26,593 bases of DNA, taken from positions 1-26,593 of IMG/VR virus record IMGVR_UViG_3300026512_000052, one strand, 5' to 3'. Of the stretch, positions 6,863-26,593 are shown one piece after another. The notes under the pieces were generated by a model that was not told the DNA's origin, ran no database searches, and was given only the letters and a program-made list of their open reading frames with translations. The translations under genes and the position numbers were made by a program. Each line of letters starts with the position of its first letter. Within the stretch, counting starts at the first letter, position 1. This DNA comes from a virus.

Positions 6863-7204
6863 GTGCCAGATAAGGTTTTAATTAATGTAGCGAATGCCTA
6901 TTTTCAATATGGGGTTTTAGGAATAAGCGTTGTTGTTTTATTACTTGTAAGTGCTGGATTATTATTATCAATTTTAAAAGATAAACAAACACATAAACAG
7001 TTTGCTGATGCAATTAGCAGCACGGCTCAAAATCAAAAAGAATTTACTATTATTTATCAAGAGTCACAAAAACAGCATAAAGAGGTTTTAAATGTGCTTA
7101 ATGAGACTTTGGACATTGAGCGAGAAAATACTAAGACTTGTTACATAGGTGTAGCAAGTAAACTCGACAAACTTCATTATATTTTAGAAAAACAAGGCAA
7201 ATAA
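6863..7204 (+). CDS. Holin-like single-span membrane protein
   Basis: A 113-aa protein with one N-terminal membrane segment (about residues 15-37, VLGISVVVLLLVSAGLLLSI) and a long charged, coiled-coil-like tail. This is the plan of BhlA/UviB-type holins. The start is GTG, with AAGGA six bases before it. It is first in the operon, just as a holin gene precedes the tail genes in Pseudomonas R-pyocin clusters. It would let the endolysin encoded at the far end of the operon reach the cell wall. A structural or spanin-like role cannot be excluded. Confidence 0.55.
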   Translation: MPDKVLINVANAYFQYGVLGISVVVLLLVSAGLLLSILKDKQTHKQFADAISSTAQNQKEFTIIYQESQKQHKEVLNVLNETLDIERENTKTCYIGVASKLDKLHYILEKQGK

Positions 7205-7730: not shown

Positions 7731-8017
7731 GTTATTTAGTAAGTGTAGAAGATAGCTTTAAAGATGCTCTTATGACTCTTAAGGGTTCTGTTATTGGTAA
7801 GCCTGATTATGGCACGAATTTACCACGACTCAAGCATCGCTCATTTAATAGTGAATGGGTAATAGATTTTAGAAGATGTTTAAAAGATGCTTGTAAACAC
7901 GACCCTCGTTTAGAGTTTAAAGGTGCAGATATAGACTCTTCAAGAGCTGGAGAGGGTGTAGTAGGATACAAAGTCTATATAGTGAATTATATAATTGAGG
8001 GGGCTGTAAATGTATGA
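7727..8017 (+). CDS. W: Baseplate wedge protein gpW (gp25-like)
   Basis: A 96-aa protein of the GPW/gp25 family, the conserved wedge piece that nucleates the sheath in T4, P2 and R-pyocins. The family pattern is visible as GSVIGKPDYGTNLPRLKHR (about residues 20-38), an aspartate- and arginine-rich middle and a beta-rich end. It overlaps gpV upstream and gpJ downstream, and the V-W-J-I order is that of P2. Confidence 0.85.
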   Translation: MSYLVSVEDSFKDALMTLKGSVIGKPDYGTNLPRLKHRSFNSEWVIDFRRCLKDACKHDPRLEFKGADIDSSRAGEGVVGYKVYIVNYIIEGAVNV

Positions 8018-9119: not shown

Positions 9120-9775
9120 GTCTTTTACCTCTTAACTCATCTTTGAAAAATCAAAAGTTTGCTGAACTTATTGATGTTGTGTCTATGGAGGATTATAGTG
9201 CTTTAAATATTGATCCAATGACTTGTGATGAGAGATTATTAGAAAATTTAGCAGTAGGTGCAGGAGTTGATATAAGTGGTCTTAGTGTTAATGAAGCTCG
9301 TATCTATATACACAATGCAAAAGAGATAAAAAGATATGCAGGGACTGTTTATGCAGTAGAGCAAAGTATCAATGTATGTTTTGAAGATGGAAAACTTAAA
9401 GAGTGGTTTGAAGCAGGACTTGATAAAGGGCTTTTTGATGTAGAAGTGAAACTAAAAGCAGATAGTAGCTTAGTATATCTTCCATCTAAGTTTGACAAAG
9501 CAAAACAGATGATAAGAAAATCTAAAAATGTAAGAAGCAAATTAAATGCTTTTAAAATCTCTTTTCCTAATGGAGAGGGTGTTGTAGAAAAAAGTGAAGC
9601 TATGAATTTTAAAATAGATTTAGACTCAAAACTTGGGTGTAGAGATATAGATACTCAAGTGAGTGCTATTACAGGAGCTGAGTTTGATTTTGTAGCAAAT
9701 ACGACTAAAAATCTACAAGATACTCCTGTGGTATGCACAAATAATTTTATAGGAGGTGCTGAGTGGCGAATTTAA
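9116..9775 (+). CDS. I: Baseplate/tail protein gpI
   Basis: A 219-aa tail protein I family member, linking baseplate to fibres. The N-terminus (SLLPLNSSLKNQKFAELID, then DPMTCDERLLENLAVGAGVD) and the following AKEIKRYAGTVYAVEQSI fit the P2 gpI pattern. The C-terminal 60 residues look beta-rich. It overlaps the fibre gene by 13 bases, and AGGAGG inside its last codons serves that gene. Confidence 0.8.
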   Translation: MSLLPLNSSLKNQKFAELIDVVSMEDYSALNIDPMTCDERLLENLAVGAGVDISGLSVNEARIYIHNAKEIKRYAGTVYAVEQSINVCFEDGKLKEWFEAGLDKGLFDVEVKLKADSSLVYLPSKFDKAKQMIRKSKNVRSKLNAFKISFPNGEGVVEKSEAMNFKIDLDSKLGCRDIDTQVSAITGAEFDFVANTTKNLQDTPVVCTNNFIGGAEWRI

Positions 9776-10299
9776 CTGCTGTTCCAACAGAAGAGGGATT
9801 AGAGATACTTAATAGCGAACTGAAATCAAGTGTCACTAACTTTGTTCTAATAGGGGCAGAAACACATGACTTGACTGTGCTTGATGATTTGATGAGTCAA
9901 GATACAGTTACATACGAAGATATAGAGCCGTATGTTTTTTACAATAACTTAGTTGAAACAAGTTATTACGATGACAATGGTGTCTTAACTTTTGTTCTGA
10001 TTATACCAGTTGAAGAAGATTTGGGGAGTTATACATACGGAGTTGGGATTATCACAGATGATAATAAACTCGTGAGTTTGACTGCTACTCCAAAGATTGT
10101 TCCAATCGTTGGTATAGGTGGTTCGTTTGTTGTAAAAGTTGCCGTAAAGGGAACTGTTGGGGAGGTTGTATTTAAAAGTAGTGATTATATAACACCTGTT
10201 GAAGCTGAGGAGTTGTTCTTAACTCCATTAATAGCAAACACTAACTTAGTGATTGCACTACAAAATAAACTTATAGATAAGGGGATTATAGATGGCTGA
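9763..10299 (+). CDS. Tail fibre N-terminal/adaptor protein (gpH-like)
   Basis: A 178-aa protein matching the N-terminal attachment domain of P2-type fibres (DUF3751-like): an opening LTAVPTEEGLEILNSEL, a beta-rich middle, and a C-terminal helix. In P2 this domain leads a long fibre. Here the protein ends early and the receptor-binding part seems to be the next gene, so the fibre is split. The start is GTG with AGGAGG six bases upstream. It is placed exactly where H lies between I and the fibre chaperone. Confidence 0.7.
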   Translation: MANLTAVPTEEGLEILNSELKSSVTNFVLIGAETHDLTVLDDLMSQDTVTYEDIEPYVFYNNLVETSYYDDNGVLTFVLIIPVEEDLGSYTYGVGIITDDNKLVSLTATPKIVPIVGIGGSFVVKVAVKGTVGEVVFKSSDYITPVEAEELFLTPLIANTNLVIALQNKLIDKGIIDG

Positions 10300-10996
10300 T
10301 ACAAATGAGGAATTAGCAAATTTAAACAATAATGCAAGACTTCTTTTAGAGAAGTATGATGGTGTGTTTGCTCAACTTGATGAACAATCTAAACAAGCAC
10401 TTATAGATATAGCAAATAAAAGTGATGAGGGACTTCAAGTGATACAGACTCTTTTAGATAATGGTTCTGTTGCAGAAGCTGAAAATGCTTTGAAACTTGG
10501 TGGTAAGACATTAGATGAAATTACTGGAACTGTTATTCAAATATATCACTATAAAACAAATGTTAGAACAGAATTAAGTTCGGCTCAAGAGACTTCTGAT
10601 GATTTAACTGCAAATAGTGGTGTTAAATGGATATCTTTCCCTTTTACACCAAAGAGAAGTGATAGTAAGTTAATTCTAATTTCTAATATCATCTCATTAG
10701 CTGAAGATAGTAATGGTTCTGATAGTCAATTTGCTTTAGCAAAATATGATGATACTTTAATAGGTGTTGCTATGGCAACAGTTGGTCATACTGCATACAA
10801 AGATAGTATGAATGCTTCTTTTAGTGCTTTTAATCATTCTTTTTTGAGTTGGGGTGCTGATGAAAAAGAGATAGAAATAAGAGTTGGACAGCGTGGAGAT
10901 AATAAATTATATGTAAATACTCCAACTGTTTATACAGACCAGTATCAAAACTTCTTTGAGATTGGTTTTACAATAATGGAGGTTTCTAATGCTTAG
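10292..10996 (+). CDS. Tail fibre distal/receptor-binding protein
   Basis: A 234-aa protein. Residues 1-75 are helical (ANLNNNARLLLEKYDGVFAQ and onward), suiting a trimeric stalk. The rest is beta-rich with many aromatic and Asn/Asp residues, ending in FFEIGFTIMEVS, like a compact globular tip. Position and architecture make it the likely host-range determinant. It overlaps both neighbours. No family was recognised for the tip, as is common for such proteins. Confidence 0.6.
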   Translation: MADTNEELANLNNNARLLLEKYDGVFAQLDEQSKQALIDIANKSDEGLQVIQTLLDNGSVAEAENALKLGGKTLDEITGTVIQIYHYKTNVRTELSSAQETSDDLTANSGVKWISFPFTPKRSDSKLILISNIISLAEDSNGSDSQFALAKYDDTLIGVAMATVGHTAYKDSMNASFSAFNHSFLSWGADEKEIEIRVGQRGDNKLYVNTPTVYTDQYQNFFEIGFTIMEVSNA

Positions 10997-11477
10997 TAGT
11001 GCTTTAAATATATTAGTTGATAAACCTAAATATCGCATAGATAATGGCAAGTTGAAATGGTTAGATGATAGACCACAACCAACTGATGAAGAGATAGCTG
11101 AAAAAGTAGCAGAGCTTGAAGCTCAAGCAGAGATAGAAGCAAAATATAAAGCGATTGAAGATGCTATTTATAAATTCTACTCTGCAAAACAACAAGCTCA
11201 AGATGAAAAGTGGGTTAGCTCATTTACTACAAAACTAAAAGCTCAAGGTGTGGCTGATTTGGAAGTGAAAATTGTTGACTTGGTAACTTCTTTTTTTAAT
11301 GGAGCAACTTTGAGTGAAGTTATCGCTGATGTAGATGATGAGCAAAAACCACTTTTTGAAAAACTTGTAAAAGTTGGGATTAGAACAGAGTGGGCTGAAT
11401 TGTGTGTTACAGAGGGTAAAAGTGCAATAGCAGAAAATAGAGAACCAGTTTATCCTGAGTTCCCAGTAATTAATTAA
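10989..11477 (+). CDS. Tail fibre assembly protein/chaperone-like
   Basis: A 162-aa protein beginning KPKYRIDNGKLKWLDDRPQP, followed by a Glu/Ala-rich helix (residues 34-60) and a helical C-terminal domain. Fibre assembly proteins (P2 gpG, Mu gpU, XkdW-type) have this kind of N-terminal strand and helix and sit directly after the fibre gene. It may fold or trimerise the split fibre. The sequence match is by pattern only. Confidence 0.5.
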   Translation: MLSSALNILVDKPKYRIDNGKLKWLDDRPQPTDEEIAEKVAELEAQAEIEAKYKAIEDAIYKFYSAKQQAQDEKWVSSFTTKLKAQGVADLEVKIVDLVTSFFNGATLSEVIADVDDEQKPLFEKLVKVGIRTEWAELCVTEGKSAIAENREPVYPEFPVIN

Positions 11478-11492: not shown

Positions 11493-12683
11493 ATGCCAAA
11501 TGGAATAAAAGTTTTACCAACTAAGAATGCGAGTGCTACTGCTACTATTATCACTTCGCTTACAGTTATAGGGATTGTAGGTTCTGCTTCTTTAGCAGGG
11601 ATTGATGTAGACATAAAAGCAAAATTAGATGATGTAAGTCAAAGTGGCTTACTTAAATTTGGAAATGCTGAGGAGGCTTTAGAGATATTTGCTTCTCAAG
11701 CTGGAACGATTAGAGAAGATTTATGGGATATTAAATCTCAAAATGTGAAGAGTCCTGTTGTTATCTCTTTAGTAGAACTAACTGATGAAATGGCAGATAA
11801 AGAACCTCAAGTGTTTTATGAAGATGCAGAGTTTAAAAGTGCGATTGTTTTAGCAGTTGGTAACTTACAAAAAGCTCGTACTCTTTTTGGTGCAAAAGTT
11901 AGAATTGCGATAGCTTCTTACTTCTCACATGATGCAACCGTAAGAGGTGCTTTAGATAGCTTTGCTAGTGGTACTAAAACGATTGCAATCGTTGATATGT
12001 ATCAGAGTGATAAAAATGATGCAATCGTAGCACTTCAAGAGCTTGGCTCAATGAGATACTTAGCATTTCCTTTTTATCGCAGAGCCTGGTCTGTGTATGA
12101 GAATGCAACTGTTTTAAAACCAAACTCGGCTGTAGTCGCTGGTCACATTGCAAGATGGGATGCACTACTTGGAGAGTTCGGTCCGTGTTTCGACCATGCA
12201 AATAAACTCATTTATGATGTAGAGGGTATTGCAATTCCTCTTACATACGAAGAGGGCGAAGATACTTGTGATGTGAATACACTTGTAAATGCTGGTGGTG
12301 CTCTTCTTTTAAATGATGATGGAAATCGTTTATATAACTTTGAGACTCCAAGCGATGATGCTCGTTTTAACAAACTTGAAACGATCCGTTTCTTTGACTT
12401 AATTAATGAGAATATGCAAAAGTCGCTTAAAAAGCATAAACATCGTCCGACTACTGATGTTCTTACACTTGCTAAAGCTGATGCAGAGGCATTTTTAAAT
12501 AAGGCTATCAGAAACGGTGCAGCGATTGGTGCAAAAGTTTGGTGGAGTGATAAAAACTCGCCTGAGGAGATTGCAGCAGGTATCTTATATATGGATTATG
12601 ATGCTGGAAATAATGTTGGGGTAAGAGCTATTGTTATTCAGCCTTATGCTACGAATGACTACTACACTGTGGAGGTTAAATAA
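11493..12683 (+). CDS. FI: Contractile tail sheath protein gpFI
   Basis: A 396-aa sheath protein, identical in length to P2 FI (396 aa). It starts PNGIKVLPTK with an inserted handle region, has a Rossmann-like middle (TKTIAIVDMYQSDKND around residues 161-176, FPFYRRAWSVYENATVLKPN near 195) and a C-terminal arm with the conserved RAIVIQPYATNDYYTV ending. It contracts to drive the tube through the target envelope. RBS AGGAGGG precedes the ATG. Its stop overlaps the tube start by one base (TAATG). Confidence 0.93.
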   Translation: MPNGIKVLPTKNASATATIITSLTVIGIVGSASLAGIDVDIKAKLDDVSQSGLLKFGNAEEALEIFASQAGTIREDLWDIKSQNVKSPVVISLVELTDEMADKEPQVFYEDAEFKSAIVLAVGNLQKARTLFGAKVRIAIASYFSHDATVRGALDSFASGTKTIAIVDMYQSDKNDAIVALQELGSMRYLAFPFYRRAWSVYENATVLKPNSAVVAGHIARWDALLGEFGPCFDHANKLIYDVEGIAIPLTYEEGEDTCDVNTLVNAGGALLLNDDGNRLYNFETPSDDARFNKLETIRFFDLINENMQKSLKKHKHRPTTDVLTLAKADAEAFLNKAIRNGAAIGAKVWWSDKNSPEEIAAGILYMDYDAGNNVGVRAIVIQPYATNDYYTVEVK

Positions 12684-13159
12684 TGACTAAGAATGGATTA
12701 GGTGCTGATGCACAACTATTAACAGGGCTATCAATTATGATAGCTGGAAAAAATACTTTTGGTTATACAGGCGATGGAACTAAGGCTCCTGAGTTTGAGT
12801 TTGAAACTGTAAATGAGCAGAGTACTGGGCTGGTTAAACAACCTAAAATGACTCTTGAAGTTTTAGACTTGAGTGCTGAATATGTAGCTCATATTGCAAG
12901 TGGTTTGCCTTTTGTTCTAAAGGGGAATACTCGTAAAGATGGAGAGGACAAACCTCTACTTGTAACAGTTCAAGGCGAACTTATGAAAACAGGTGGCGAA
13001 TTAAAAGAGGGCGATGCAACTAAACGAACTTTTGAAATTCGTGTGGATATGTATAGTGAGATTGTTGATTTTATTCCAACGATTGTTTACACTCGTGAGC
13101 CGTACAATATCATTTTAGGTGGTATTCCGATGGCTCCTGATTTTTCAAATAACATATAA
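12683..13159 (+). CDS. FII: Tail tube protein gpFII
   Basis: A 158-aa FII-family tube protein, the subunit of the inner tube. Typical features are the FEFETVNEQSTGLVKQPKMT strand pair, a beta-rich middle and the C-terminal YTREPYNIILGGIPM. P2 FII is about 172 aa. It follows the sheath with translational coupling, as in all P2-type tails. Confidence 0.88.
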   Translation: MTKNGLGADAQLLTGLSIMIAGKNTFGYTGDGTKAPEFEFETVNEQSTGLVKQPKMTLEVLDLSAEYVAHIASGLPFVLKGNTRKDGEDKPLLVTVQGELMKTGGELKEGDATKRTFEIRVDMYSEIVDFIPTIVYTREPYNIILGGIPMAPDFSNNI

Positions 13160-13171
13160 AGGTAGGTTTTT

Positions 13172-13480
13172 ATGAGTAAAAGCATTTATGAAAGTAAGCA
13201 AGTAGTTTTAAGTCGTGTTTATCCTTTTGGAGATAAAAGAAAAGCAAAAGTTCGTGGTGTTGCTAAAGATGTAACAGTTCTTACAGTCAATGAGTTAAAC
13301 GGTCTTGATGATGAGCAACTGCTTAAAAAAGAGAATCCGTCTGTTTATGATGAGATTGCTGTTTCATGTGGTCTTACAGTTGAGGAAGCTAAAAAGCTAA
13401 CTCGTACAGATGCACAACTCATTAATGAGGTTCAGCAAGGTTTTTTGTACGGCTCGGAGGAGATAGAGCTACTAGACTAG
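13172..13480 (+). CDS. E: Tail assembly chaperone gpE
   Basis: A 102-aa protein in the position of P2 gpE, the first tape-measure chaperone. It shows the E-family plan: a beta-strand start (VVLSRVYPFGDKRKAKVRGV) and an all-helical end rich in Glu. It contains the slippery heptamer T TTT TTG at 13441-13447, twelve codons before its stop, from which a longer gpE+E' product can arise. RBS AAAGGTAGG is upstream. Confidence 0.85.
   Translation: MSKSIYESKQVVLSRVYPFGDKRKAKVRGVAKDVTVLTVNELNGLDDEQLLKKENPSVYDEIAVSCGLTVEEAKKLTRTDAQLINEVQQGFLYGSEEIELLD
13441..13447 (+). promoter_or_regulatory. Programmed -1 ribosomal frameshift site T TTT TTG
   Basis: In the gpE frame this reads GG(T TTT TTG), an X XXY YYZ heptamer; the P2 E/E' slip site is of the same kind. 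A slip back by one base opens 58 further codons with no stop until 13621. The purine-rich GGCTCGGAGGAG directly downstream may add an internal Shine-Dalgarno-like stimulus. Confidence 0.85.
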
Positions 13481-13693: not shown

Positions 13694-14008
13694 ATGGATA
13701 AATTACATACATTAAACGAAAAAGAGCAGAGAGAAGCTGTACATGCAGGTCTTGTAGATGATGGTGTTAAAGTTACTAAAACTTTAGTAGACACAATCAT
13801 GGACAAACAAAATGATTTGCTTTTTAACGCTCTTGCTAGTGGTAAAGGTATCAAAGTAAGTGGTCTTGGAACTCTTGAAGTTCGTCCTCATGCTGAGAGA
13901 AACTATAAGTTACCTGATGGTACAACTGGAACTGCTGATGCAGGTTTTCATGTTAAGTTTGTTGAGAGTGACAAACTTATGACTGCGATGAATACTACTG
14001 AAGCGTAG
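13694..14008 (+). CDS. HU/IHF-family DNA-binding protein
   Basis: A 104-aa protein with the HU fold signature: an N-terminal helical half, then GKGIKVSGLGTLEVRPHAER (residues 51-70), an arm region, and a C-terminal FHVKFVESDKLMTAM. Canonical HU is about 90 aa; this one has some 15 extra residues at the N-terminus. It lies between E' and the tape measure gene, an unusual location for a DNA-bending protein. It may bend DNA for the phage regulators, the telomere or the origin, or have been captured into the tail operon. RBS AAAGGG is upstream. Confidence 0.75.
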   Translation: MDKLHTLNEKEQREAVHAGLVDDGVKVTKTLVDTIMDKQNDLLFNALASGKGIKVSGLGTLEVRPHAERNYKLPDGTTGTADAGFHVKFVESDKLMTAMNTTEA

Positions 14009-14107: not shown

Positions 14108-16717
14108 ATGGCTGGTATTGGTGCGGTAAGTCTGAATATGGTGTGGAACCCAGCCATAAAGGGTTCAAATTTTTTACAAGCAAGTGTTAAGGGTATTCAT
14201 ACTTATGCTCAAAAGGTTACAAAAGCGAACCTTTTACAAAGCACTAAATTTTCTCTTCTTAATAGAAATCTCAAACAGTTAGATAACCATTTAGGGCATA
14301 TAAGAAAAACAACTGCGAAGATAAGTGCTAATCCGATTAAGTTAGATATTAAAACATCAAGAACGAGTTTAAAAGAGGCTCGTAAGGATATGACTGCGAT
14401 TGAGCATGATGCAAAGCAAGTGGCTTTTTGGACTAAAAAGAGTTCTGAGAATTTAAAAGCTGGTGCAAATGCTCAAAGAAAAACAATGCAAAAAAAAGCT
14501 AAAAGTTCTCAAGTAAGTGGTTCTACGATAGTTGGAGCTGTTGCCGTTGCTAGTGTTTTAACTTTACCATTTAAGGCGAGTATTGAGTTTGAAAGTAAGA
14601 TGGCGAGAGTTAAGGCTCTAAGTGGTGCTACTGATAAAGAGTTCAAAGCTTTAAATAATACGGCTTTAAAGCTTGGTGCTACGACTGAGTGGTCAGCTGG
14701 TCAAGTTGCTGAGGGTATGCAGTTTTTGAGTATGGCTGGATTTAATGCTAATCAAACAATAAGTGCGATGCCAGGTCTTTTGGCTCTTGCTACTGCTGGA
14801 GCTACTGATTTGGCTACGACTTCGGATATTGCCTCAAATATTATGGGTGGTTTTAATATCGACCCTACGGACACAATAAACGGAATGAGTGCCATGAGCT
14901 ATGTGAGTGATGTTTTAGCAAAAACAATCACTTCTGCAAATGTAGATATGAGAATGCTCGGCGATACCATGAAGTATGTAGCACCTGTTGCAAAAACTGC
15001 TGGTATGAGTTTACAAGAGACTTCGGCAATGGCTGGGTTACTTGGAAATATCGGAATTCAGGGAAGTATGGCAGGTACAACTTTGAAAAGTATGGTTTTA
15101 AGACTTGCTAGTCCAACTGGTAAAGCACGAAAAGCACTTAGTGAACTTGGAGTTTCAGCTTTAGATGCTCAAGGAAATATAAGAAGTATGCCTCTTCTTT
15201 TAAAAGAGGTTGCAAAAGCTACTGAAAATATGGGTAGTGGGGATAGGCTCGGATTTATAAAAAGAGTGTTTGGAACTGAACCTGCGGCGGGTATAAATAA
15301 ACTGATAGAACAGAGCGGAAGTGGTGCTTTAGATAAATACTTGAGTGTTGTAAATCAGTATAAAGGTTCGGCGAAAAAAATAGCTGATATACAACTACAA
15401 TCAACGGCAGGGCATTTTAAACTACTTGGTTCAGCAATGGAGGGTTTAAGTATTAGTGCTACTACAGGACTGCTTCCTGCAATTAAGTTTGTAACAAAAG
15501 GATTGACGAGTGTTGCTTCTAAAGTTCAAGGGTTTACAAAGTCATTTCCTGAGGCTTCTAAGTGGATATTTGGGCTTGGTGCTGCTTTTGTGATTGGTAG
15601 TGTTGCTCTTGCTGGATTTGGGCTTGTTGCAAGTGGTGTCGGTGCTGGTTTGGCTCTTTTGGCTTCGCCTGTAACTGCGATAGTTTTAGGAGTGGTTGCG
15701 ATTGGTGCAGGGCTTGTTTATCTTTATAATAAATTTGATTTTGTAAGTAGTGCTGTAGATGGTTTTTTTAGTGGTCTACTTGATGGAATCTCTCCTGCTG
15801 TGAATGCACTTAAAAGCTCTTTTGGTGGATTATTTGGTGCTATTGGTGGGTTGTTTAACTCTTTAAAGCCTGTGTTTAGTTTCTTTAGTTCTGCTCTAAA
15901 TATGATAGGGATTAACTTTAATAATACAGGGGGTTTGATTGGTTCAGCTTTTGGATTGATTTTATTTCCTATAAGAATGGTTGTAAAAGCTCTTACATTC
16001 GTAATAAATATCGGTGCTATGGTTGTTGATGGATGGGTAAAAATAGGACAATTAGCAGGTGTTGTTTGGAGTGGTATAGCTAGTTTTATAAGCTCAATAG
16101 GTATCGGAATTAAAAACACTTTTATAGCTATGTTTAATTGGTCTCCGATTGGTTTGATTGTTAATAATTGGGGGAAAATTGGAGCTTATTTTTTAAATAT
16201 TGCAAGTATAATTAAAAAGCCGTTTGTATCGTTTTTTGATTGGATAGGTTCAAAATTTAAAGCCGTTTTCGGTTTGATAGATAAAGCTAAAAGTGTTGTA
16301 AATGCTCCGATAGAGACGATAAAAAGTGGAGCTTCTAAACTTTGGAGCGGTACTAAGTCAATCTTTGGGTTTGGAGATGATAAAAAAGAGCCTATAAAAA
16401 GCAAAATACCAAAAGCAGGTGTGCCTGTTAATAATGTAGATTTTAAACCCTCTTCTCTAAAAGAGGCTCAAATAGCTCAAGTTCCTTTAGAGAGTGTTAG
16501 TGATGTAACGGCTGGTGCGATAAATGAAACTAAATCATTTATGCAAAATAATACAAATAACACTCAAGGTGTAAATCAAAATATTACTAATCATATAACT
16601 GTTAATGCTCCAGCTGGAGGTCAAGTTGATTATGAGGATTTAAAAATAAAGTTAGTACAAGCTCAAAAAGAGTTGTCTCAAGAAGATACAGATTTGCAGA
16701 TGCAAGATGCATCATAG
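14108..16717 (+). CDS. T: Tail tape measure protein gpT
   Basis: An 869-aa tape measure protein of the TP901/PhageMin_Tail type. Residues 1-140 are basic and coiled-coil-like; residues about 150-365 carry the conserved domain (FESKMARVKALSGATDKEFK, then ATTEWSAGQVAEGMQFLSMA). Long hydrophobic stretches follow, rich in Gly/Ala/Val (about 490-710), then a linker and a polar C-terminus with NITNHITVNAPAGGQVDYED. By the rule of about 0.15 nm per residue the tail would be near 130 nm long. RBS AAAGGG precedes the ATG. The 99-bp gap upstream shows a weak TATAAA but no clear promoter. Confidence 0.92.
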   Translation: MAGIGAVSLNMVWNPAIKGSNFLQASVKGIHTYAQKVTKANLLQSTKFSLLNRNLKQLDNHLGHIRKTTAKISANPIKLDIKTSRTSLKEARKDMTAIEHDAKQVAFWTKKSSENLKAGANAQRKTMQKKAKSSQVSGSTIVGAVAVASVLTLPFKASIEFESKMARVKALSGATDKEFKALNNTALKLGATTEWSAGQVAEGMQFLSMAGFNANQTISAMPGLLALATAGATDLATTSDIASNIMGGFNIDPTDTINGMSAMSYVSDVLAKTITSANVDMRMLGDTMKYVAPVAKTAGMSLQETSAMAGLLGNIGIQGSMAGTTLKSMVLRLASPTGKARKALSELGVSALDAQGNIRSMPLLLKEVAKATENMGSGDRLGFIKRVFGTEPAAGINKLIEQSGSGALDKYLSVVNQYKGSAKKIADIQLQSTAGHFKLLGSAMEGLSISATTGLLPAIKFVTKGLTSVASKVQGFTKSFPEASKWIFGLGAAFVIGSVALAGFGLVASGVGAGLALLASPVTAIVLGVVAIGAGLVYLYNKFDFVSSAVDGFFSGLLDGISPAVNALKSSFGGLFGAIGGLFNSLKPVFSFFSSALNMIGINFNNTGGLIGSAFGLILFPIRMVVKALTFVINIGAMVVDGWVKIGQLAGVVWSGIASFISSIGIGIKNTFIAMFNWSPIGLIVNNWGKIGAYFLNIASIIKKPFVSFFDWIGSKFKAVFGLIDKAKSVVNAPIETIKSGASKLWSGTKSIFGFGDDKKEPIKSKIPKAGVPVNNVDFKPSSLKEAQIAQVPLESVSDVTAGAINETKSFMQNNTNNTQGVNQNITNHITVNAPAGGQVDYEDLKIKLVQAQKELSQEDTDLQMQDAS

Positions 16718-16828: not shown

Positions 16829-17740
16829 ATGAACAAAGATGAAGTTGTTATTTTAACAGATGAGATGAGAGACGGTTTTGATTTTAAAAAAGGTCAAATT
16901 ATTGTTTTAGGTTGTAGTGTTGATGAAAAGGGAAATAATGAGTTTGAGTTACCTGCAATAGTTACAAAAGTGCATGAGAGAGACGAAAACGGCCATTATC
17001 AATATGATTATATTTTTCCTCTAAGAGGTGCTTGTGAATTTGTGAGCTGGGGCGAAGATAAAAAAAGATACTTATGGCGTTTTCATCGTAAAGAAGTAGT
17101 AAGACCTCCTACATGGTTTTTAACTTTATTAAAACAAAGTGCAAAACACTTTCATGAGTGGGATATAGATTTAGCTATTGAAGAGCTTTTTTATATAGAT
17201 AAAGATGTAGCAAACAAGAAAGATATGTTTGTTAATTATCCGTTTAGAAGTGACAGTTTAGAACCTGATGAGATAACTAAAGAAGAAAAAGCATTTTGTC
17301 TTGATTTGGCAGAAAATATCAAGTTTTATGACTTACAAAAACAGTTTAAAAAACTTCTAAAAAAGAAAAAAAAGAAGTGTACACAAATAGAGGGGAAAGC
17401 ATCTTTTGGCGAGATAGTTGAGATTTTTAGAATTTTAGATAGAAATTTTAATCATGCTTTTACTGCAGGTATGGGTGCAAGTTGGAATGATGATGGGAAA
17501 CTTATGTCTGTTGATGGAATGGCTCTTTTTAAACATGGTTATTTTGAAACACATCCATATATTAATCATAGTAATGGGAACGGATATTTACTTAGATATG
17601 AGGGTAACTTGTTTGAAGATACTTATAAAATTTCTGTTCTAAGAGTAGATAAAAATAAGACTATTGATGATATTGCATCAAGAGTAAGAAGATTAGAAGA
17701 TAAAGAACCAATGCATGAAATCAAAGGGGAAGTAGAATAA
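16829..17740 (+). CDS. Unknown 303-aa cargo protein in the tail operon
   Basis: I do not recognise this protein. It is soluble and charged, without signal peptide or membrane segment. The N-terminal 60 residues look like a small beta domain (VVILTDEMRDGFDFKKGQII); an unusual Lys block (LLKKKKKKC, residues 181-189) follows; the C-terminal third is Asn/Gly- and His-rich (HPYINHSNGNGYLLRYEGN) and ends in a helix RRLEDKEP. It sits with the zinc-ribbon peptide and the nuclease between T and U, where P2 and R-pyocins have nothing. Its stop overlaps the nuclease ATG (TAATG). It may be an effector, a regulator or a particle component. Confidence 0.6.
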   Translation: MNKDEVVILTDEMRDGFDFKKGQIIVLGCSVDEKGNNEFELPAIVTKVHERDENGHYQYDYIFPLRGACEFVSWGEDKKRYLWRFHRKEVVRPPTWFLTLLKQSAKHFHEWDIDLAIEELFYIDKDVANKKDMFVNYPFRSDSLEPDEITKEEKAFCLDLAENIKFYDLQKQFKKLLKKKKKKCTQIEGKASFGEIVEIFRILDRNFNHAFTAGMGASWNDDGKLMSVDGMALFKHGYFETHPYINHSNGNGYLLRYEGNLFEDTYKISVLRVDKNKTIDDIASRVRRLEDKEPMHEIKGEVE

Positions 17741-18243
17741 TGAAAAAAATAATTTTAATGATGTTAATAGTGGCTTCACTATTTGCGAATGAATGGCAAG
17801 AAGCAAAAGTTAAGTATGTGATTGATGGGGATACTCTTATGCTTCAGAAAGGTAGTTCAAAACCTTTTAAAGTTCGTTTGATTGCTCTTGATACTTTTGA
17901 AAATAAGTTTAATCATAGAGTTTTTGGACAGTTAGAAACACTTAAAAATGTGCATCCTATGAATAAGCATAATACAGTTAAAAAAGTTATATCTTTTGGA
18001 TATAAAGCTCAGAAATATGTAAGTGATAGATACTTAGGTAAAACAGTTAAATATCATGTATATGGCCGTGATAAATATAAACGCTTGTTGGTTTGGATTG
18101 AGGTTTTAAATTTTTCTTTAGTTCGTCAAGGATGGGCTGTATATTACCCTAATAATCAAATAAGTAAAGAGCGAAAAGCTTATCTCTTAAAATTGAGCCG
18201 TGATGCAAATGTGAATCATCGTGGAATATATGCGAGGTATTAA
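17740..18243 (+). CDS. Secreted thermonuclease (SNase family)
   Basis: A 167-aa staphylococcal-nuclease-like protein with a clean Sec signal (residues 1-16, cut after SLFA). The active site is intact: Arg46, Asp51 and Glu54 in VRLIALDTFE have exactly the spacing of SNase Arg35/Asp40/Glu43, and Arg115 in DKYKR corresponds to Arg87. VIDGDT at 28-32 is the other family hallmark. It would cut DNA or RNA in the periplasm or outside. In a tail operon it may destroy incoming DNA, degrade DNA after lysis, or be delivered with the tail. It directly abuts gpU. Confidence 0.88.
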   Translation: MKKIILMMLIVASLFANEWQEAKVKYVIDGDTLMLQKGSSKPFKVRLIALDTFENKFNHRVFGQLETLKNVHPMNKHNTVKKVISFGYKAQKYVSDRYLGKTVKYHVYGRDKYKRLLVWIEVLNFSLVRQGWAVYYPNNQISKERKAYLLKLSRDANVNHRGIYARY

Positions 18244-18648
18244 ATGAGTTCGTTTTCTAAACTTGTTAATGGTATGGATATGGGAAAGATAGGCGATTTT
18301 AAATTCTATATGAATAAGAATGAGTACAAAAAACTATCTAAATCATTGAGTGCTACTTTTGGAAGTTATAAACCTATAAAAGGTCAAGAACGATTAAGTG
18401 ATGCTGGAGGGTTTGAGCGAAAAATATCTTTAAATGGTGTTTTGGTAGTTCAGCCACAAGATTCACTTAAAAGTTTAGAGGATTATGTAGAAGCTCGTGA
18501 GCCTTTGGAATTTACAACTTTAAGAGAGAGTTTTGAAGTTGTGATAACAAACCTAAATATAAATCAGAGTCATTTTTTAGATAATGGAGATTTTACGGTG
18601 CAAGATTATAACTTATCTCTAAAAGAGGTTTATGATGAGCTTGTATAG
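18244..18648 (+). CDS. U: Tail protein gpU
   Basis: A 134-aa GpU-family tail component. Family pattern: MGKIGDFKFYMNKNEYKKLS at residues 13-32 (P2 U opens similarly with a fold on the F-x-F motif), then GGFERKISLNGVL and a C-terminal DYNLSLKEV. In R-pyocins and P2, U, X and D follow the tape measure, as here. Its ATG comes directly after the nuclease stop. Confidence 0.8.
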   Translation: MSSFSKLVNGMDMGKIGDFKFYMNKNEYKKLSKSLSATFGSYKPIKGQERLSDAGGFERKISLNGVLVVQPQDSLKSLEDYVEAREPLEFTTLRESFEVVITNLNINQSHFLDNGDFTVQDYNLSLKEVYDELV

Positions 18649-18850
18649 AACTAAAGAGGGCGATAGAATTGATTTGATAGTGCTTAAACATTATGGCGAT
18701 TTAAAACACTTAAATGATGTGATAGGTGCTAATAAAGTGCTTTGGGATAAACCTATGAATCTAAATTGTGATTTAAATATAGAGCTTCCTTTGTTTAGTA
18801 CAAAAAGTAATGATCCATATAAACAAAAAGAGAGAGGTCCACTATGGTAA
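18632..18850 (+). CDS. X: Tail protein gpX (LysM-like)
   Basis: A 72-aa gpX family protein: YRTKEGDRIDLIVLKHYGDL is the LysM-like core of the family, and VLWDKPMNLNCDLNIELP fits the conserved end. P2 gpX is of similar size (67 aa). It overlaps both U and D by a few bases. It is thought to help attach the central spike region. Confidence 0.82.
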   Translation: MMSLYRTKEGDRIDLIVLKHYGDLKHLNDVIGANKVLWDKPMNLNCDLNIELPLFSTKSNDPYKQKERGPLW

Positions 18851-19779
18851 ATGACATCATAGAGCTTTTAATAGATGGTCAAAGTGTAAATATTAACGAT
18901 GTTTTATCTCTTACTTTTAGCGATAGTGCTGGAGTTAAAAGCGATAAAGTATCTTTAAAAGTTATGCCATATTTTAAAAAACCTGCACCAAGTACAAAGC
19001 TAGAACTCACTTTTAAAACATTAAAAAATGGTTCAGAGGTAGAGTCACTCGAGTGTGGTTTGTTTCATGTACAAACAGTTACACGAAGTAACACTAAAGA
19101 GCTTTCATTTAGTGCTACAGGTGTGGAGTTTAATGAGAAGCAGAAGGACAAAATTTCGCATCATTATCAAAATACTAAACTCTCCTCGATTTTAGAAATT
19201 GTAGCAGGTCGTTTAGGTCATAAAGTGAAGTTTGAAGCTGAGGATATAGATATAAAATCGCTTAATCAAACAAACGAGAGTGATATAAATTTCTTAGATA
19301 GACTCTCAAAAGATTATAACTGTTTGTTTTCTATCAAGAATGATTTTATATATTTTGTAAATAAAGATGATGGCGAATTGCCTGTAACTCAAATAGATGT
19401 AAGTAAGTGTAGCTCTTCATCATTGAAACACTCTTCAAAACTATTTTATAAATCGTGTGAGGCTTCATGGCATGACACGGACAAAGCAAAAACAAAAAAA
19501 GTCACTTTTGGAGATGGTACACCTGTACTAAAAATCAAAGGTACATATATAGATGAGGAAGATGCTTTAGTGAAAGCAAAATCAAAATTAAAGAGTGTAA
19601 ATAAAGGTACGGTAAGCGGTTCTTTATCTCTAAAAGGGATAAAAGTTTATGCAGGTACTAAAGTCGATTTGGTTAATACATATCAAGGGGAAGATGATGG
19701 CATTTATAGTGTCAGTAGCTGTACTCACTCTTATAGTCGTGGTAATGGCTGGAGTTGTAGTATCGAAATAGAAAATTAA
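18844..19779 (+). CDS. D: Tail hub protein gpD (late control protein D)
   Basis: A 311-aa gpD-like protein, the hub joining tube and spike; the family is also called late control D. Evidence: the strand-rich N-terminal domain with SDSAGVKSDKVSLKV, the central NESDINFLDRLSKDYNCLFS (about residues 140-160) that is strongly conserved in the family, and a C-terminal DGIYSVSSCTHSYSRGNGWS. P2 D is about 387 aa. With V it completes the central spike. Confidence 0.87.
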   Translation: MVNDIIELLIDGQSVNINDVLSLTFSDSAGVKSDKVSLKVMPYFKKPAPSTKLELTFKTLKNGSEVESLECGLFHVQTVTRSNTKELSFSATGVEFNEKQKDKISHHYQNTKLSSILEIVAGRLGHKVKFEAEDIDIKSLNQTNESDINFLDRLSKDYNCLFSIKNDFIYFVNKDDGELPVTQIDVSKCSSSSLKHSSKLFYKSCEASWHDTDKAKTKKVTFGDGTPVLKIKGTYIDEEDALVKAKSKLKSVNKGTVSGSLSLKGIKVYAGTKVDLVNTYQGEDDGIYSVSSCTHSYSRGNGWSCSIEIEN

Positions 19780-20190: not shown

Positions 20191-20472
20191 ATGAAGCTTT
20201 TAATTTTAAGTTTAATGATGATGTTTGCTTTAGTAGGGTGTGTTACTGATAAGCCGTATGCAGTTGGTAAGGTTGTTTATACAGGTGCAAGGACTGCATA
20301 TATAGAGTTGCCAATTCCTGAGAATGGTACTTTAAAAAATGTTGATACTGTTTTAGTTCAATATGACAAAGTAAGAACAGGCGTAAGAAGTGTTATCGAT
20401 AGTAAAAAAAAAGAGGATGCAAATACTTCACGACAAGTGGATATTGGATTAAATGTTGGTGGTAAATTATGA
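20191..20472 (+). CDS. Small lipoprotein, possible lysis-related
   Basis: A 93-aa lipoprotein with a signal segment (KLLILSLMMMFALVGC) and lipobox LVGC, Cys17 being the lipidated residue. The mature part is small and polar. It overlaps the endolysin start by ATGA, which suggests a lysis role such as an outer-membrane spanin partner (Rz1-like). However, it lacks the Pro-rich character of Rz1, so this is uncertain. An alternative is a surface-exclusion lipoprotein. Confidence 0.65.
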   Translation: MKLLILSLMMMFALVGCVTDKPYAVGKVVYTGARTAYIELPIPENGTLKNVDTVLVQYDKVRTGVRSVIDSKKKEDANTSRQVDIGLNVGGKL

Positions 20473-20867
20473 TTGATTTAGAAAAACAGTTAAAAAAGTA
20501 TGAAGGTTTTGTGGGTATGCCCTATGAAGACAGCTTAGGGATTCCTACTATTGGATATGGTACTAAGTTACCTATAAATGAGGATGAAGCGGAATTGCTT
20601 TTGAAATATAGACTTGAGCAAAAGAGAGATGAGCTAATAATCGCTATGCCTTTTGTTTATAACTTGCCTGAGGATAAACAAAAAGTGCTTTATGAGATGA
20701 GCTATCAGATGGGTGTGAGTGGAGTACTTCTTTTTAAAAGAATGTGGAGAGCTTTAAAAAGTGGAGATTTTGAGAGTGCAGCTGATGAGATGTTAAAAAG
20801 TCGCTGGGCTGTTCAAACTCCAAAAAGGGCTAAAAAACTAAGTGAAATAATGCGAGGTAAAAAATGA
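20469..20867 (+). CDS. Endolysin, GH24 (T4-type) lysozyme
   Basis: A 132-aa muramidase that would cut the peptidoglycan to release particles. The catalytic triad of T4 lysozyme is present with exact spacing: Glu12 (KYEGF), Asp21 (YEDS) and Thr27 (PTIGYGT), against T4 Glu11/Asp20/Thr26. It has no signal peptide, so it needs a holin; the membrane protein at 6863 is the candidate. It is the last gene of the tail operon. A G9 tract starts five bases after its stop codon. Confidence 0.9.
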   Translation: MIDLEKQLKKYEGFVGMPYEDSLGIPTIGYGTKLPINEDEAELLLKYRLEQKRDELIIAMPFVYNLPEDKQKVLYEMSYQMGVSGVLLFKRMWRALKSGDFESAADEMLKSRWAVQTPKRAKKLSEIMRGKK

Positions 20868-20995: not shown

Positions 20996-21787
20996 TTGAA
21001 TACTACTACATTAAAACCACCCCACGGCTGGGTAGGTGGAAAATCAAAACTTGCTAAACAGATTGTTAGTTTTATACCTGATAATCACAATCTTTATGTT
21101 GAAGTTTTTGGAGGTGCATTAAATGTACTTTATGCAAAGGATTGTCCTCAAAATGGGAAATATAGAGAAGTAGCAAATGATTTTAATAGCGATTTGATTA
21201 ATCTGCATAAGTGTATAAGAAATAATCCTACCAAACTGCAAAAATATCTTAATGAGCTTTTTATAAGTCGTGAGCTGTTTGAGGATATAAAACGAAGTAT
21301 TTTAACACCTCGTAACAATATAGAAAAAGGAGCTTTTTTCTTCTATAAGTTACAGATGAGTTTTGGGAGCAAGGGCGATAATTTTGCGATGAGTGCAAAG
21401 AGTCGTAAGCCTAAAAATATATATAAAGATTTTACTAAATGGTCGCAGAGGCTTAAGATGGTAACTGTTGAAAATATGGACTTTGAAAAGCTGATACTTA
21501 ACTATGATAAAGAGGAAACATTTTTTTATTGCGACCCTCCGTATGTTGGAACTGAGTCAATGTATAAAAATAAAAAAACCTTTGATTTAAACGACCATAA
21601 ACGGCTATATATGGCTTTAGCATGTGCTAAGGGTAAGTTTCTACTCAGTTACAATGATTGTGAGTTTGTGAGGGAGTTATATAAAGATTTTAAAATAGTT
21701 GAGAGTGATGCAATACGGTACACTTTAGGAGCGAATGTACATAAAAATAAAAAAGTGGTTAGAGAGCTGTTTATAATGAATTATTAG
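20996..21787 (+). CDS. DNA N6-adenine methyltransferase (Dam/D12 class)
   Basis: A 263-aa D12-class adenine methylase. The SAM site is PPHGWVGGKSKLAKQI near residues 8-23, the partner motif is YVEVFGGALNVLY, and the catalytic motif is FYCDPPYVGTE (about residues 176-186). It probably methylates GATC or a related site, protecting the element's DNA or altering regulator binding. The start is TTG with AAAAGGG upstream; the next in-frame Met would cut into the SAM motif region, so TTG is preferred. No cognate restriction enzyme is adjacent. A CI-type operator at its promoter ties it to induction. Confidence 0.88.
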   Translation: MNTTTLKPPHGWVGGKSKLAKQIVSFIPDNHNLYVEVFGGALNVLYAKDCPQNGKYREVANDFNSDLINLHKCIRNNPTKLQKYLNELFISRELFEDIKRSILTPRNNIEKGAFFFYKLQMSFGSKGDNFAMSAKSRKPKNIYKDFTKWSQRLKMVTVENMDFEKLILNYDKEETFFYCDPPYVGTESMYKNKKTFDLNDHKRLYMALACAKGKFLLSYNDCEFVRELYKDFKIVESDAIRYTLGANVHKNKKVVRELFIMNY

Positions 21788-23685: not shown

Positions 23686-23997
23686 TTACTCTTTACTATG
23701 TAACTCATAATGAGCTAAAAGCAATTTTTTAGCAACTGCATTCGGTGTTCTCTCTTTACGATTAGTTAAATTCTCTAAGTACTCCAGCTGTTCATCGTTT
23801 ATATAAAAAGCGATTTTATTTGTAGCTTTACTTTTTCCCTGTAGTGGACGACCTGCTTTTTTATCTTCACTCTTTGAAGCTACAATCTCTTTAAGCTCTT
23901 TGTGTTCAGCTGCTTTTTTATCTTCACCCTCAAAAGAGTGAGACACTTCTACTTTTGAAACTAAGTCGCCTATTTTTGGTTTATCTTTTTTAATCAT
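23686..23997 (-). CDS. Partition partner with C-terminal ribbon-helix-helix
   Basis: This 103-aa protein has a flexible, charged N-terminal half (residues 1-58, Lys/Glu-rich) and a C-terminal RHH-like domain (NKIAFYINDEQLEYLENLTN, then RTPNAVAKKLLLAHYEL). This is the plan of ParG-type partners in type Ib partition systems: the tail stimulates the ATPase and the RHH binds the centromere. It overlaps the ParA-like gene by eight bases. The centromere was not identified. Confidence 0.7.
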   Translation of the reverse strand: MIKKDKPKIGDLVSKVEVSHSFEGEDKKAAEHKELKEIVASKSEDKKAGRPLQGKSKATNKIAFYINDEQLEYLENLTNRKERTPNAVAKKLLLAHYELHSKE

Positions 23998-24604
23998 TTT
24001 TATCTCCTCTTGATTTTTCTTCTAGTAGCTCAATATAAAGAGCTTCATTATCTAAAACATATTTTAGAATCTCTTTATACTCTGGAATGAAGTTACGACC
24101 AGCATAAGCTATTTGTTTGCTTTCAGCTATAAGCTCAAGTGGACTCATTCCATACTCTAAACCATTTTTTAGCATTTTTGTTTTACGAAGTGGTAGCACC
24201 TCTATATCTTGGAACTGCTCTTGTATATCTGATTTTATCTCTTTAAAATCTTGTGTGTTTTCAAGTCGTGTCGCTACAACCAAAAAACGGTTATTGTATT
24301 TTTTAAGCTCGTTTATTGTTTTGATAGCTTTCATTTTTGAGTTTAAATCGTTTATGCAAGGAACTATTACAATATCACTATGTTTGATAATATCAAGCAC
24401 ACCAGCATCAACAAAGCCACCGAAGTCGTAAACTACATCTTCTATGATTGGAAGCTCCTTTGTGATTTGTGCCATATCTTGATAAACGGCTTCTATCACA
24501 CTATCATCGTTGCTTAGTAGATAATAGTTTAGCTCTTTTGCTATTGCAAAGGCTAGAGCAGTCTTACCTGCTCCACCATCTGTTGTAATTACTGATATTC
24601 TCAT
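23990..24604 (-). CDS. ParA-like partition ATPase
   Basis: A 204-aa ParA/MinD-superfamily ATPase. The P-loop is TTDGGAGKTAL (residues 7-17): the GKT is intact, but the signature Lys of the deviant Walker A (K-GG-x-GKT) is replaced by Asp10. Walker B is DVVYDFGGF near residue 60. The length matches short type Ib ParA. It would segregate the plasmid with the RHH protein. It overlaps its neighbours on both sides, in one operon with the protelomerase. N15 likewise carries a sop-type partition system. Confidence 0.82.
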   Translation of the reverse strand: MRISVITTDGGAGKTALAFAIAKELNYYLLSNDDSVIEAVYQDMAQITKELPIIEDVVYDFGGFVDAGVLDIIKHSDIVIVPCINDLNSKMKAIKTINELKKYNNRFLVVATRLENTQDFKEIKSDIQEQFQDIEVLPLRKTKMLKNGLEYGMSPLELIAESKQIAYAGRNFIPEYKEILKYVLDNEALYIELLEEKSRGDKND

Positions 24605-24904: not shown

Positions 24905-26248
24905 TTATTTCCCCTCTTTTGTCATGTAGTGGTTAGCTGATACTAATCTATCTTTGTTTATTTCATGTCCTAAAATATCAGAGATAAAGTCCTCTTTTTC
25001 TCTATCAGAGCCATTTTTCTTACCGTATTTAAGATAAGCCATTTCAGCAAAAATCTCTCTTAAATCGTGGTAAGTGTATTTGAGTCCTGTAATGTTTTTT
25101 AATGCTCTATTGAAAATATGATTAAACTTGCTGTTTACTTCTTGGTTTGTCATATTTGAAGTGTCTATATCTTCTCTAAGTTGTTTTAAAAGTTTAGATA
25201 ATAGTTCATAATCATCATCTAAGCTATAAGCTTTAACTTCAACACCCTCAGAGCCTTTTTTCATTATGCCCTTGTAATACCATCCATCTTCTTTTTTTAC
25301 CAGCTCAAGAGATTTTAAAATCTCAGTAATTCTGCGACCTGTAACAAAAGCTATGTAAGTGGCGAATAAGTAAGCTCTAGCTCTATCAACTGTTTGTTGT
25401 TTAGATATTGGTAAGCCGTTAGCTTTCCATTGTTCAATAGTTACTTCAGTTCCTAGTGCTAAAGCTGTCTTTACTGTTTCTTTTAAAGTTGATATAGTGC
25501 TTTCAATATCTTTTATTTCAAAAGTTTCTTTGTCTGCATCAAGCTTATCTAGTACTTTTTTAGTGTCTGCTTTTTTAATTCTCTCATAAACATCTTGAGG
25601 AACTGAAAAAAGCTCCAATGCATAATCTTGGAAGTTGTCATTTACATCTTTAATTACATTTCTCATGTCTGCATAATAACGAGCTACTGTTTTGATGCTT
25701 CTTGCACCCATCCAGCAATATGGTAGATATTTAGTAACAGTTAGTGCGGTGTCTCTTTTATTTTCACATTTAAGTAAATCTTGTTTAAAAAGCTCTCTAA
25801 CTTCTTTTAATGAAGTAACACCGTAAAATATTTTAACAATATCATCATGTGTTCGTTCTTCTTGTGGTACATTATCTTTTATAGCCTGAGTTACTTTGTG
25901 TTCAACTGCATCTATAACCTCATCGGCTACAATAGAGGCTATATCATCACTATCAATATCACAAACGGCTTCTGTGTTGCCTTTTGCTTCTTTTAACTCT
26001 TTAACCTCAGCCATAAGCTCTTTTATAAGGTTTAAAACTTCTGTATTGTCTGTGAGTGTTGCTTCACTCTTTGGCTCTACATATAAATCCCACTTTTTTT
26101 CTTTAGAAGCCATCATATTGAAAGTTTTACCCTCGTTATCTACGATTTGACCATCTTTATTGACTACTATATATTTATTCTTATCCCAACTACTAGCTCG
26201 GACTTTAGAACCACTCATAAGCTTTGTAAGTGCTGTATTCTTAACCAT
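24905..26248 (-). CDS. Protelomerase (telomere resolvase)
   Basis: This 447-aa tyrosine-recombinase-fold protein matches protelomerases better than integrases. Residues that fit the active site are Arg305 or Arg306 (TGRRITEI), Lys330/331 (MKKGSEG), His394/Arg397 in YTYHDLREIFAEMAY, His428 in DILGHE, and the likely nucleophile Tyr441 in ANHYM. HxLR followed by a hydrophobic Y/F-A-x-x-A-Y helix is typical of TelN/TelK-type enzymes. Length is like ResT and TelA (about 440-450 aa), shorter than TelN (631). It cuts and rejoins a palindrome to form hairpin ends. AGGAGG precedes the ATG, and the telomere-like palindrome lies about 310 bp upstream, as in N15, where the site is next to the enzyme gene. 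A diverged integrase is the alternative. Confidence 0.85.
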   Translation of the reverse strand: MVKNTALTKLMSGSKVRASSWDKNKYIVVNKDGQIVDNEGKTFNMMASKEKKWDLYVEPKSEATLTDNTEVLNLIKELMAEVKELKEAKGNTEAVCDIDSDDIASIVADEVIDAVEHKVTQAIKDNVPQEERTHDDIVKIFYGVTSLKEVRELFKQDLLKCENKRDTALTVTKYLPYCWMGARSIKTVARYYADMRNVIKDVNDNFQDYALELFSVPQDVYERIKKADTKKVLDKLDADKETFEIKDIESTISTLKETVKTALALGTEVTIEQWKANGLPISKQQTVDRARAYLFATYIAFVTGRRITEILKSLELVKKEDGWYYKGIMKKGSEGVEVKAYSLDDDYELLSKLLKQLREDIDTSNMTNQEVNSKFNHIFNRALKNITGLKYTYHDLREIFAEMAYLKYGKKNGSDREKEDFISDILGHEINKDRLVSANHYMTKEGK

Positions 26249-26405
26249 GTTATGCCTCCTATGTTTTGCTAACTGTTGAAATTGTATCTAAACAAAGCTT
26301 AAATTAATATAATACTATACATACTATTATAAAAATATACTAATTTAAAAAGCCCTATATATAGGATAAAAGAACTAACTATAAATATATATTACTATAT
26401 ATACT
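26249..26405 (-). promoter_or_regulatory. Protelomerase promoter region
   Basis: On the minus strand several TATAAT/TATTAT elements occur (around 26310-26340). TAACTGTTG (26270-26278), one base off the terminal motif TAACWGTTA, lies between these and the RBS AGGAGG. If the protelomerase or a partner binds that motif, the gene would be self-controlled. Confidence 0.5.
26353..26365. repeat. Palindrome CCCTATATATAGG, right-end copy
   Basis: A 12-bp perfect palindrome CCTATATATAGG (26354-26365) with an extra C on the left, matching 13 of the 14 bases of the copy in the origin (1216-1229). Confidence 0.6.
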
Positions 26406-26424
26406 ATTATAAAAAGTTATTCAC
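26406..26424. repeat. 19-bp subterminal inverted repeat, right copy
   Basis: ATTATAAAAAGTTATTCAC is the exact reverse complement of 167-185. It forms the inner edge of the right box array. Confidence 0.8.
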
Positions 26425-26506
26425 ATTTAGGCTTAATTTGTATGTGAATAACAGCAATTCGCTAACAGTTAGTTATTCACTTAGGACGGTTAGCAATGTG
26501 AATAAC
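26416..26506. repeat. Right array of four TTATTCACA boxes
   Basis: Boxes are at 26416-26426 (+), 26442-26452 (-), 26472-26481 (+, last base T instead of A) and 26496-26506 (-). Orientation is +,-,+,- and start-to-start spacing is 26, 30 and 24 bp, the same series as at the left end. CTAACAGTTAGTTATTCAC at 26462-26480 also occurs directly repeated at 75-93. Confidence 0.75.
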
Positions 26507-26557
26507 TTTTAAAAAAATAACTGTTAAAAACCGTTAGTGCCTGAGCAGATTTTTTGC

Positions 26558-26593
26558 TAACTGTTATTTAATTAATTAATTAAATAACTGTTA
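26558..26593. repeat. Telomere-like 36-bp near-palindrome (candidate protelomerase target)
   Basis: The core at 26564-26587 is a perfect 24-bp AT-only palindrome centred between 26575 and 26576. The flanks TAACTG and CTGTTA extend it to 18 base pairs with one T:T mismatch (26562/26589). It ends exactly at the window border. If the last base joins the first, one more pair forms. The mismatch argues against simple read-through of a hairpin and for a true left/right junction site. TAACTGTTA copies at 26518, 26558 and 26585 accompany it. Confidence 0.75.

Follow-up and report, generated by a model that had tools for sequence, protein, structure and literature searches.

A probable hairpin-ended linear plasmid of Campylobacterota with an R-type tailocin-like cargo

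The telomere phages N15, phiKO2, PY54, VP882, phiHAP-1, VHML and Valp1 are linear hairpin replicons that combine phage genes with a protelomerase, a palindromic telomere just upstream of it and a nearby ParA, and the element described here presents the same combination. In N15, telRL is located about 165 bp upstream of the protelomerase gene. However, the telomere phages of gammaproteobacteria are complete phages, of 38-55 kb, that possess heads and a terminase, whereas the elements studied here have 25-27 kb, carry no recognisable head or packaging genes and belong to Campylobacterota. Furthermore, telomere phages have one telRL and identical telomeres, whereas two distinct telomeres were seen here in two relatives, G004 and G411. 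The telocin-carrying Klebsiella telomere phages are likewise telomere replicons that arm the host against competitors, although their telocin, encoded on a complete phage, is a bacteriocin protein that is secreted (PMC12042878), and the weapon here would be the tail itself.

Outside the phages, the hairpin-replicon enzymes TelA of Agrobacterium and ResT of Borrelia share their fold and catalytic residues with the enzyme reported in this work, whose best structural match was TelA (442 aa; E 4.7e-9). They are, like it, small enzymes with neither muzzle nor stirrup, and in both cases two telomere ends are maintained separately. The replicons served by TelA and ResT are chromosomes and plasmids that are not known to carry tail operons. 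As for the cargo, the well-known R-type pyocins and P2-type tailocins sit on chromosomes; they have in common with our element the order V W J I fibre FI FII E T U X D plus lysis, a LexA/CI-type regulator and the lack of head genes, but here the operon appears to be part of a hairpin-ended linear plasmid that replicates autonomously and has genes for partition and replication. A search of a literature library returned no paper on protelomerases that names Campylobacterota or Epsilonproteobacteria, and no paper joining protelomerase with tailocin or tailocin with Campylobacterota. A 2025 survey of telomere phages makes no mention of Campylobacter or Helicobacter (PMC12042878).

The window analysed here, of 26,593 bp, comprises an entire IMG/VR record. 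Relatives were present in viral contigs and in three MAGs with the label Helicobacteraceae or Campylobacterales; a genome scan with the single protelomerase protein gave no match, and a scan with the protelomerase alignment gave the three MAG contigs. The binning of these MAGs supports a Campylobacterota host, as the earlier note had proposed. The replicon size of the family is ~25-27 kb. Because both ends of G004 and of G411 (26,659 and 27,145 bp) are telomeres, the element can be considered complete, and the window, G007 and G009 (25-26.6 kb) present a synteny identical to that of the telomere-bounded elements. All these data suggest that the window is essentially a complete linear replicon.

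The gene at 24905-26248 (minus strand) encodes a protein of 447 aa with a Tad2/DUF2829-like N-terminus (about residues 1-60), a helical linker and core-binding region, and a ResT/TelK catalytic C-terminus (about 294-442), the chain stopping 6 residues past the catalytic Tyr. The HxxR, LGH and NHY motifs reported in the earlier note are all present, within a series formed by TGRR (303-306), KKG (330-332), H394-D-L-R397, L426-G-H428 and N-H-Y441 that is kept in the relatives, L397-type neighbours excepted. The catalytic set R306, K330/331, H394-xx-R397, H428 and Y441 is in the required order and invariant in the relatives; that of TelA is R255, K286, Y363-xx-R366, H394 and Y405, with a His-Tyr spacing of 11 (PMC3558466). 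In the window protein this spacing is 13, constant in its clade including G411, compared with 9 in TelN, TelK and VP882, 11 in ResT and 10-11 in three distant Campylobacterales proteins, so that the difference from TelN and TelK pointed out previously was reproduced exactly.

Several independent searches agree on the identity of this protein. The Pfam family PF16684 (ResT-TelK_cat) matched it with 47.5 bits (cut-off 27) and matched every one of the 13 proteins aligned in A3, that of the window among them; the diverged protelomerase of G411, 35% identical to that of the window, gave 24.2 bits, just under the cut-off. Phmmer led to ResT (8vs5; E 5e-6), and hhalign against a profile of six N15/VP882-type protelomerases (TelN/TelK/VP882) gave a probability of 96.9%, while searches of phages and plasmids with the protein returned weak matches to ResT, VP882 and Leptolyngbya only. 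An AlphaFold model from 6 sequences (pLDDT 54) was set aside, and the addition of diverse relatives (13 sequences) raised the pLDDT to 73.6, with values of about 90 within the catalytic domain. When this model was compared by Foldseek, protelomerases occupied ranks 1-8, TelA being accompanied by TelK (E 9.7e-6) and ResT (E 1.3e-3), and the first Xer appeared at rank 9 (E 0.06); in a viral library the top match was VHML ORF1. The TM-scores were modest (0.36 by query length), indicating that the structural match covers the core and not the whole chain. In a catalytic-domain tree the Campylobacterota proteins are placed apart from the N15-type enzymes, on long branches and with a support of 92-94% only, which is no proof. 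Taken together, these data support the assignment of the predicted product to the ResT/TelK family of protelomerases; the TelN/TelK-type identity suggested in the earlier note is thus upheld, and the possibility it raised that the protein might fall among integrases is not.

The enzyme also has features of its own. It ends right after the catalytic Tyr, lacking the C-terminal extension of TelN/TelK, and its sequence is weakly similar to those of the telomere-phage enzymes. Unlike TelA and ResT, whose fold it shares, it has the catalytic Tyr 6 residues from the end and a Tad2/DUF2829-like N-terminal fusion. Residues 1-60 resemble this Thoeris anti-defence fold in BFVD matches of 1.3-2.3 A rmsd, with an E of about 5e-3 only, and Pfam placed Tad2/DUF2829 below its threshold; in G411 (L065 398-1810) the domain looks duplicated. 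More distant protelomerase-like proteins were observed in other Campylobacterales genomes (L061, L062 and L063). One of their genes adjoins genes for ParA and an RHH protein, and a sheath search there was negative. From these sequences, it is possible that hairpin replicons are more widespread in the Campylobacterales.

The right telomere (telR) of the window is the palindrome TAACTGTTATTTAATTAATTAATTAAATAACTGTTA at 26558-26593, which forms the end of the contig, pairs at 17 of 18 positions and is 309 bp from the start codon of the protelomerase. This coincides with the 36-bp palindrome of 17/18 pairs described in the earlier note about 310 bp upstream; the same note called it AT-only, which is incorrect, as each arm holds a C and a G (TAAC-N-GTTA). 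Chance is not expected to produce such a palindrome (0 in 100 shuffles), and the site is perfect in relatives, with counterparts in G001, G004 and G005. The window does contain one true mismatch, 14 nt off centre (inner arm AAATAACAGTTA, outer arm AAATAACTGTTA), and therefore its terminal palindrome is not a clean hairpin read-through and the window alone proves no hairpin. A telR-telL joint was considered, the end of the window abutting its start as in the telL of G004. However, because the outer arm fits the telR arms of G004 and G005 at 18/18 positions and the telL of G004 at 17/18, such a joint is no more likely than a cross-over, during assembly, to a sister variant. At the other end, base 1 of the window is the exact point at which the telL palindrome of G004 stops, and G004 runs on from this position into a perfect 98-bp palindrome.

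The evidence for hairpin ends comes from the relatives. Several of their assemblies stop either at the palindrome beside the protelomerase or, on the opposite side, at a second one, and past the centre of the palindrome the mirror is perfect as far as the contig extends. The mirrored lengths were 49/49 nt at the left end of G004, 52/52 at both ends of G411, which thus presents perfect 104-bp fold-backs at both ends of its 27,145 bp, 26/26 in G005, 22/22 in G009, and 15/15 both in G001 and at the right end of G004. This folding back past the centre excludes a simple circle, which would run from the arm into the other end. The fold-back contigs fit either hairpin ends or telL-telL and telR-telR replication junctions awaiting resolution, which would have the same appearance and imply the same biology. 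In this way, the relatives support the hairpin linear replicon, with a telomere beside the enzyme, that had been proposed from the window.

Two types of telomere, telR and telL, can be distinguished by their tips, and both centre and flanks differ between them in G004 and G411. Read from the tip inward, the arm of telR is TTAATTAAATAACNGTTAG and that of telL is ATAATTAAATAACNGTTA or ATATATAAATAACCGTTAG. The arms keep AAATAAC-N-GTTA, where N is A, T, C or G and co-varies in both arms of the perfect palindromes. In G411, whose protelomerase is the most diverged, both the box of the telomere and the repeats of the subtelomere are altered, to GAAGATTA / CTAATCTT, and its arms (TTATTAAATGAAGATTA and ATATTAAATGAAGATTA) indicate that the difference between the telR and telL tips is kept while the box changes.

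Next to the palindromes there are arrays of short repeats. The telR subtelomeric array (26415-26526) contains TAACNGTTA boxes at 26463-26471 and 26518-26526, in addition to those in the palindrome arms (26558-26566 and 26585-26593), and DnaA-box-like TTATTCACA sites at 26417-26425, 26443-26451 and 26497-26505. The left subtelomere (1-211), on the telL side, is an inverted repeat of the right end with the telL palindrome just missing from the contig, and has TAACNGTTA at 33, 76 and 129 and TTATTCACA-type sites at 86, 112, 142 and 166. The TAACNGTTA box is clustered in the terminal few hundred bases (7 of 10 copies in the window and 8 of 12 in G004, with ~0.1 expected there) and absent from the ends of G411, which has CTAATCTTA-type repeats instead. 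The TTATTCACA sites are found at both ends and almost nowhere else (3+4 in the window, 3+3 in G004 and 4+4 in G411). These putative DnaA sites fit the Sulfurimonas denitrificans DnaA box HHATTCACA (PMC5043019).

The window also has genes for its own maintenance. An iteron-like array of 11-bp units, TACTGAAACAC / TGGTGTTTCTA, in both orientations (1019-1292) is a putative replication origin, and is followed on the minus strand by a DUF5906-family replicative helicase (1323-3179; Pfam PF19263, 6.7e-21; phrog_1156 DNA primase) and a primase with a CHC2 zinc ribbon and a Toprim-like region (3180-4217; Pfam PF01807, 6.7e-8). The partition pair (23686-24604, minus strand), kept beside the protelomerase in the relatives, consists of ParA (23990-24604; phrog_164, 5e-8) and a ribbon-helix-helix CopG-like partner (23686-23997; RHH_7, 0.013). 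Regulatory functions would correspond to a late-activator-like regulator (4857-5318, minus strand; phrog_836, 4e-4) and to a CI/LexA-type repressor with HTH and S24 peptidase domains (5666-6349, plus strand; HTH_3, 5e-11; Peptidase_S24, 1.9e-10; phrog_4), which is probably SOS-responsive. There is also a Dam-type N6-adenine methyltransferase (20996-21787, plus strand; Pfam PF02086, 2e-31). In the variable accessory zone, G004 encodes a PAPS-reductase-family protein (L027 3908-4999; Pfam 2.5e-23) and G411 a similar-looking ORF (L065 4248-5360); a link of this protein to defence or DNA modification is possible.

The plus strand carries a contractile tail operon with lysis genes, in which the holin, tube and fibre assignments are weak. 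It begins with a small membrane protein (6863-7204), a candidate holin by its single hydrophobic segment and its position before V, with no family match. This is followed by the baseplate genes V (spike), W, J and I (7206-9775; phrog_9992, phrog_43, phrog_6 and phrog_48), a tail-fibre region of three variable ORFs (9763-11477), recognised by position, replacement between relatives and weak PHROG matches, the tail sheath FI and tail tube FII (11493-13159; phrog_23, 1.2e-31, and Pfam Phage_tube, 0.0015, below cut-off), and an E-like tail chaperone assigned by position and synteny only (13172-13480). Further on there are an HU/IHF-like DNA-binding protein (13694-14008; phrog_379, 1.2e-5), the 869-aa tape measure T (14108-16717; phrog_28, 1.9e-109), a secreted-type staphylococcal-nuclease homologue conserved in the tail operon of the relatives (17740-18243; Pfam SNase, 5.4e-11), the tail genes U, X and D (18244-19779; phrog_76, phrog_46 and phrog_52), a DUF1353 gene, and an Rz1-like lipoprotein, with the lipobox LVGC in its translation, together with an endolysin (20191-20867; phrog_7). 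The order V W J I fibres FI FII E T U X D lysis is that of a P2/R-pyocin-type contractile tail, and R-type pyocins have the same gene order. Pairwise dN/dS values of the structural genes were mostly 0.06-0.3, with X and I the highest, indicating that the tails are maintained by purifying selection and are no decaying remnant. One relative, G006, contains a diversity-generating retroelement (L047 12322-15902) with a reverse transcriptase (RVT_1, 9e-18), and 113-bp template and variable repeats in which 18 of the 19 differences fall at template adenines; the variable repeat lies at the end of a 632-aa tail-fibre gene. The retroelement would hypermutate the receptor binder of the G006 tail weapon.

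No head gene accompanies these tails. The terminase and portal profiles PF03237 and PF04860 gave no match in the window, G002, G004, G007, G009 or G411, the phrog_2 terminase profile gave no match, and the phage structural matches in the protein scans of the window were all to tail genes. In the ORF inventory there was no unassigned ORF fitting a terminase, a portal or a major capsid protein, and the larger orphans scanned in the relatives were a PAPS reductase, methylases, a reverse transcriptase and fibres. A head protein that has diverged beyond the reach of every HMM library could be imagined, though the ORF sizes leave little room for one.

We consider it likely, from these sequences, that the window is a hairpin-ended linear plasmid of Campylobacterota with an R-type tailocin-like cargo under the control of the S24 repressor. 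With N15-type replicons it has in common a protelomerase, partition genes and a linear state, the last one read from fold-back contigs and not from native DNA, while head, portal and terminase genes were not found and, in G004 and G411, two different telomeres take the place of a single telRL. From the genes alone, it presents the attributes of an R-type tailocin, that is, a contractile tail operon with lysis genes, selection on it, and no capsid, portal or terminase. The element would replicate from an internal origin by its own primase and helicase and be partitioned by ParA and its RHH partner. Replication through the ends would yield telL-telL and telR-telR palindromic junctions, and the protelomerase would cut them at the palindrome by a Tyr-phosphodiester step and refold each strand, leaving two covalently closed hairpins. 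Upon damage, tails would be made and the cell would lyse, and the released tails could act as tailocins, killing those competitors whose receptors fit the variable fibres.

Other explanations account for part of these data. The element could be a telomere-phage satellite that makes its own tails, takes heads and packaging motor from a helper phage and is transmitted by DNA-carrying particles; this is unlikely, although purifying selection on tail genes without head genes, a phage-type repressor and a Dam methylase common in mobile elements, and the finding of the family in several separate samples speak for it. However, small terminase, head-size and head-joining genes were not found, the different centres of telL and telR argue against a regular packaged form with a joined telRL like that of N15, and the gene order, which is that of R-pyocins, was also counted against a satellite. 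Very improbable, in our opinion, is a complete N15/VHML-like hairpin prophage whose head genes reside in a different contig or in a second segment sharing these telomeres. Among known replicons, a protelomerase and phage morphogenesis genes occur together in the N15- and VHML-type phages, and a sister segment would be visible to a palindrome scan only if assembled and with the exact core kept. Nevertheless, two contigs bounded by telomeres on both sides have no recognisable head genes, which largely refutes the single-segment version, and the palindrome-pattern scan of viral contigs returned one extra element and only members of this protelomerase family, with no head-bearing sister segment. 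Least probable of all is a tyrosine integrase or resolvase on a circular element, with palindromes that are just common inverted repeats at which assembly breaks off: the catalytic core is common to tyrosine recombinases, IMG/VR reports no end repeats, and the window palindrome is imperfect, with the window end abutting the start exactly like the telL flank in G004, but assemblies cross the palindrome centre, fold back 22-52 nt and do not enter the other end, the left and right telomeres differ, and Xer matches are far weaker than those to protelomerases.

The hairpin-ended plasmid with a tail cargo remains our preferred reading, and the finding of the earlier note is confirmed and larger than noted, since it now also comprises a second telomere, an element that is essentially complete and, above all, the headless contractile tail cargo. 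We are inclined to think, with some reserve, that these hairpin-ended linear "tailocin plasmids" of Campylobacterota constitute a novel class of mobile element. Its two types of telomere would differ in function, its protelomerase, telomere box and subtelomeric repeats would change in concert, boxes for the DnaA of the host would lie at either end, and some members would diversify their fibres by a retroelement. Telomere-bounded contigs, in turn, are a simple marker of complete hairpin elements in metagenomes. If this reading is true, it would extend hairpin telomeres to a new phylum, provide a naturally occurring set of telomere/enzyme pairs from which recognition could be worked out, and place a phage-tail weapon outside both the chromosome and the phage life cycle, moving as an independent linear replicon.
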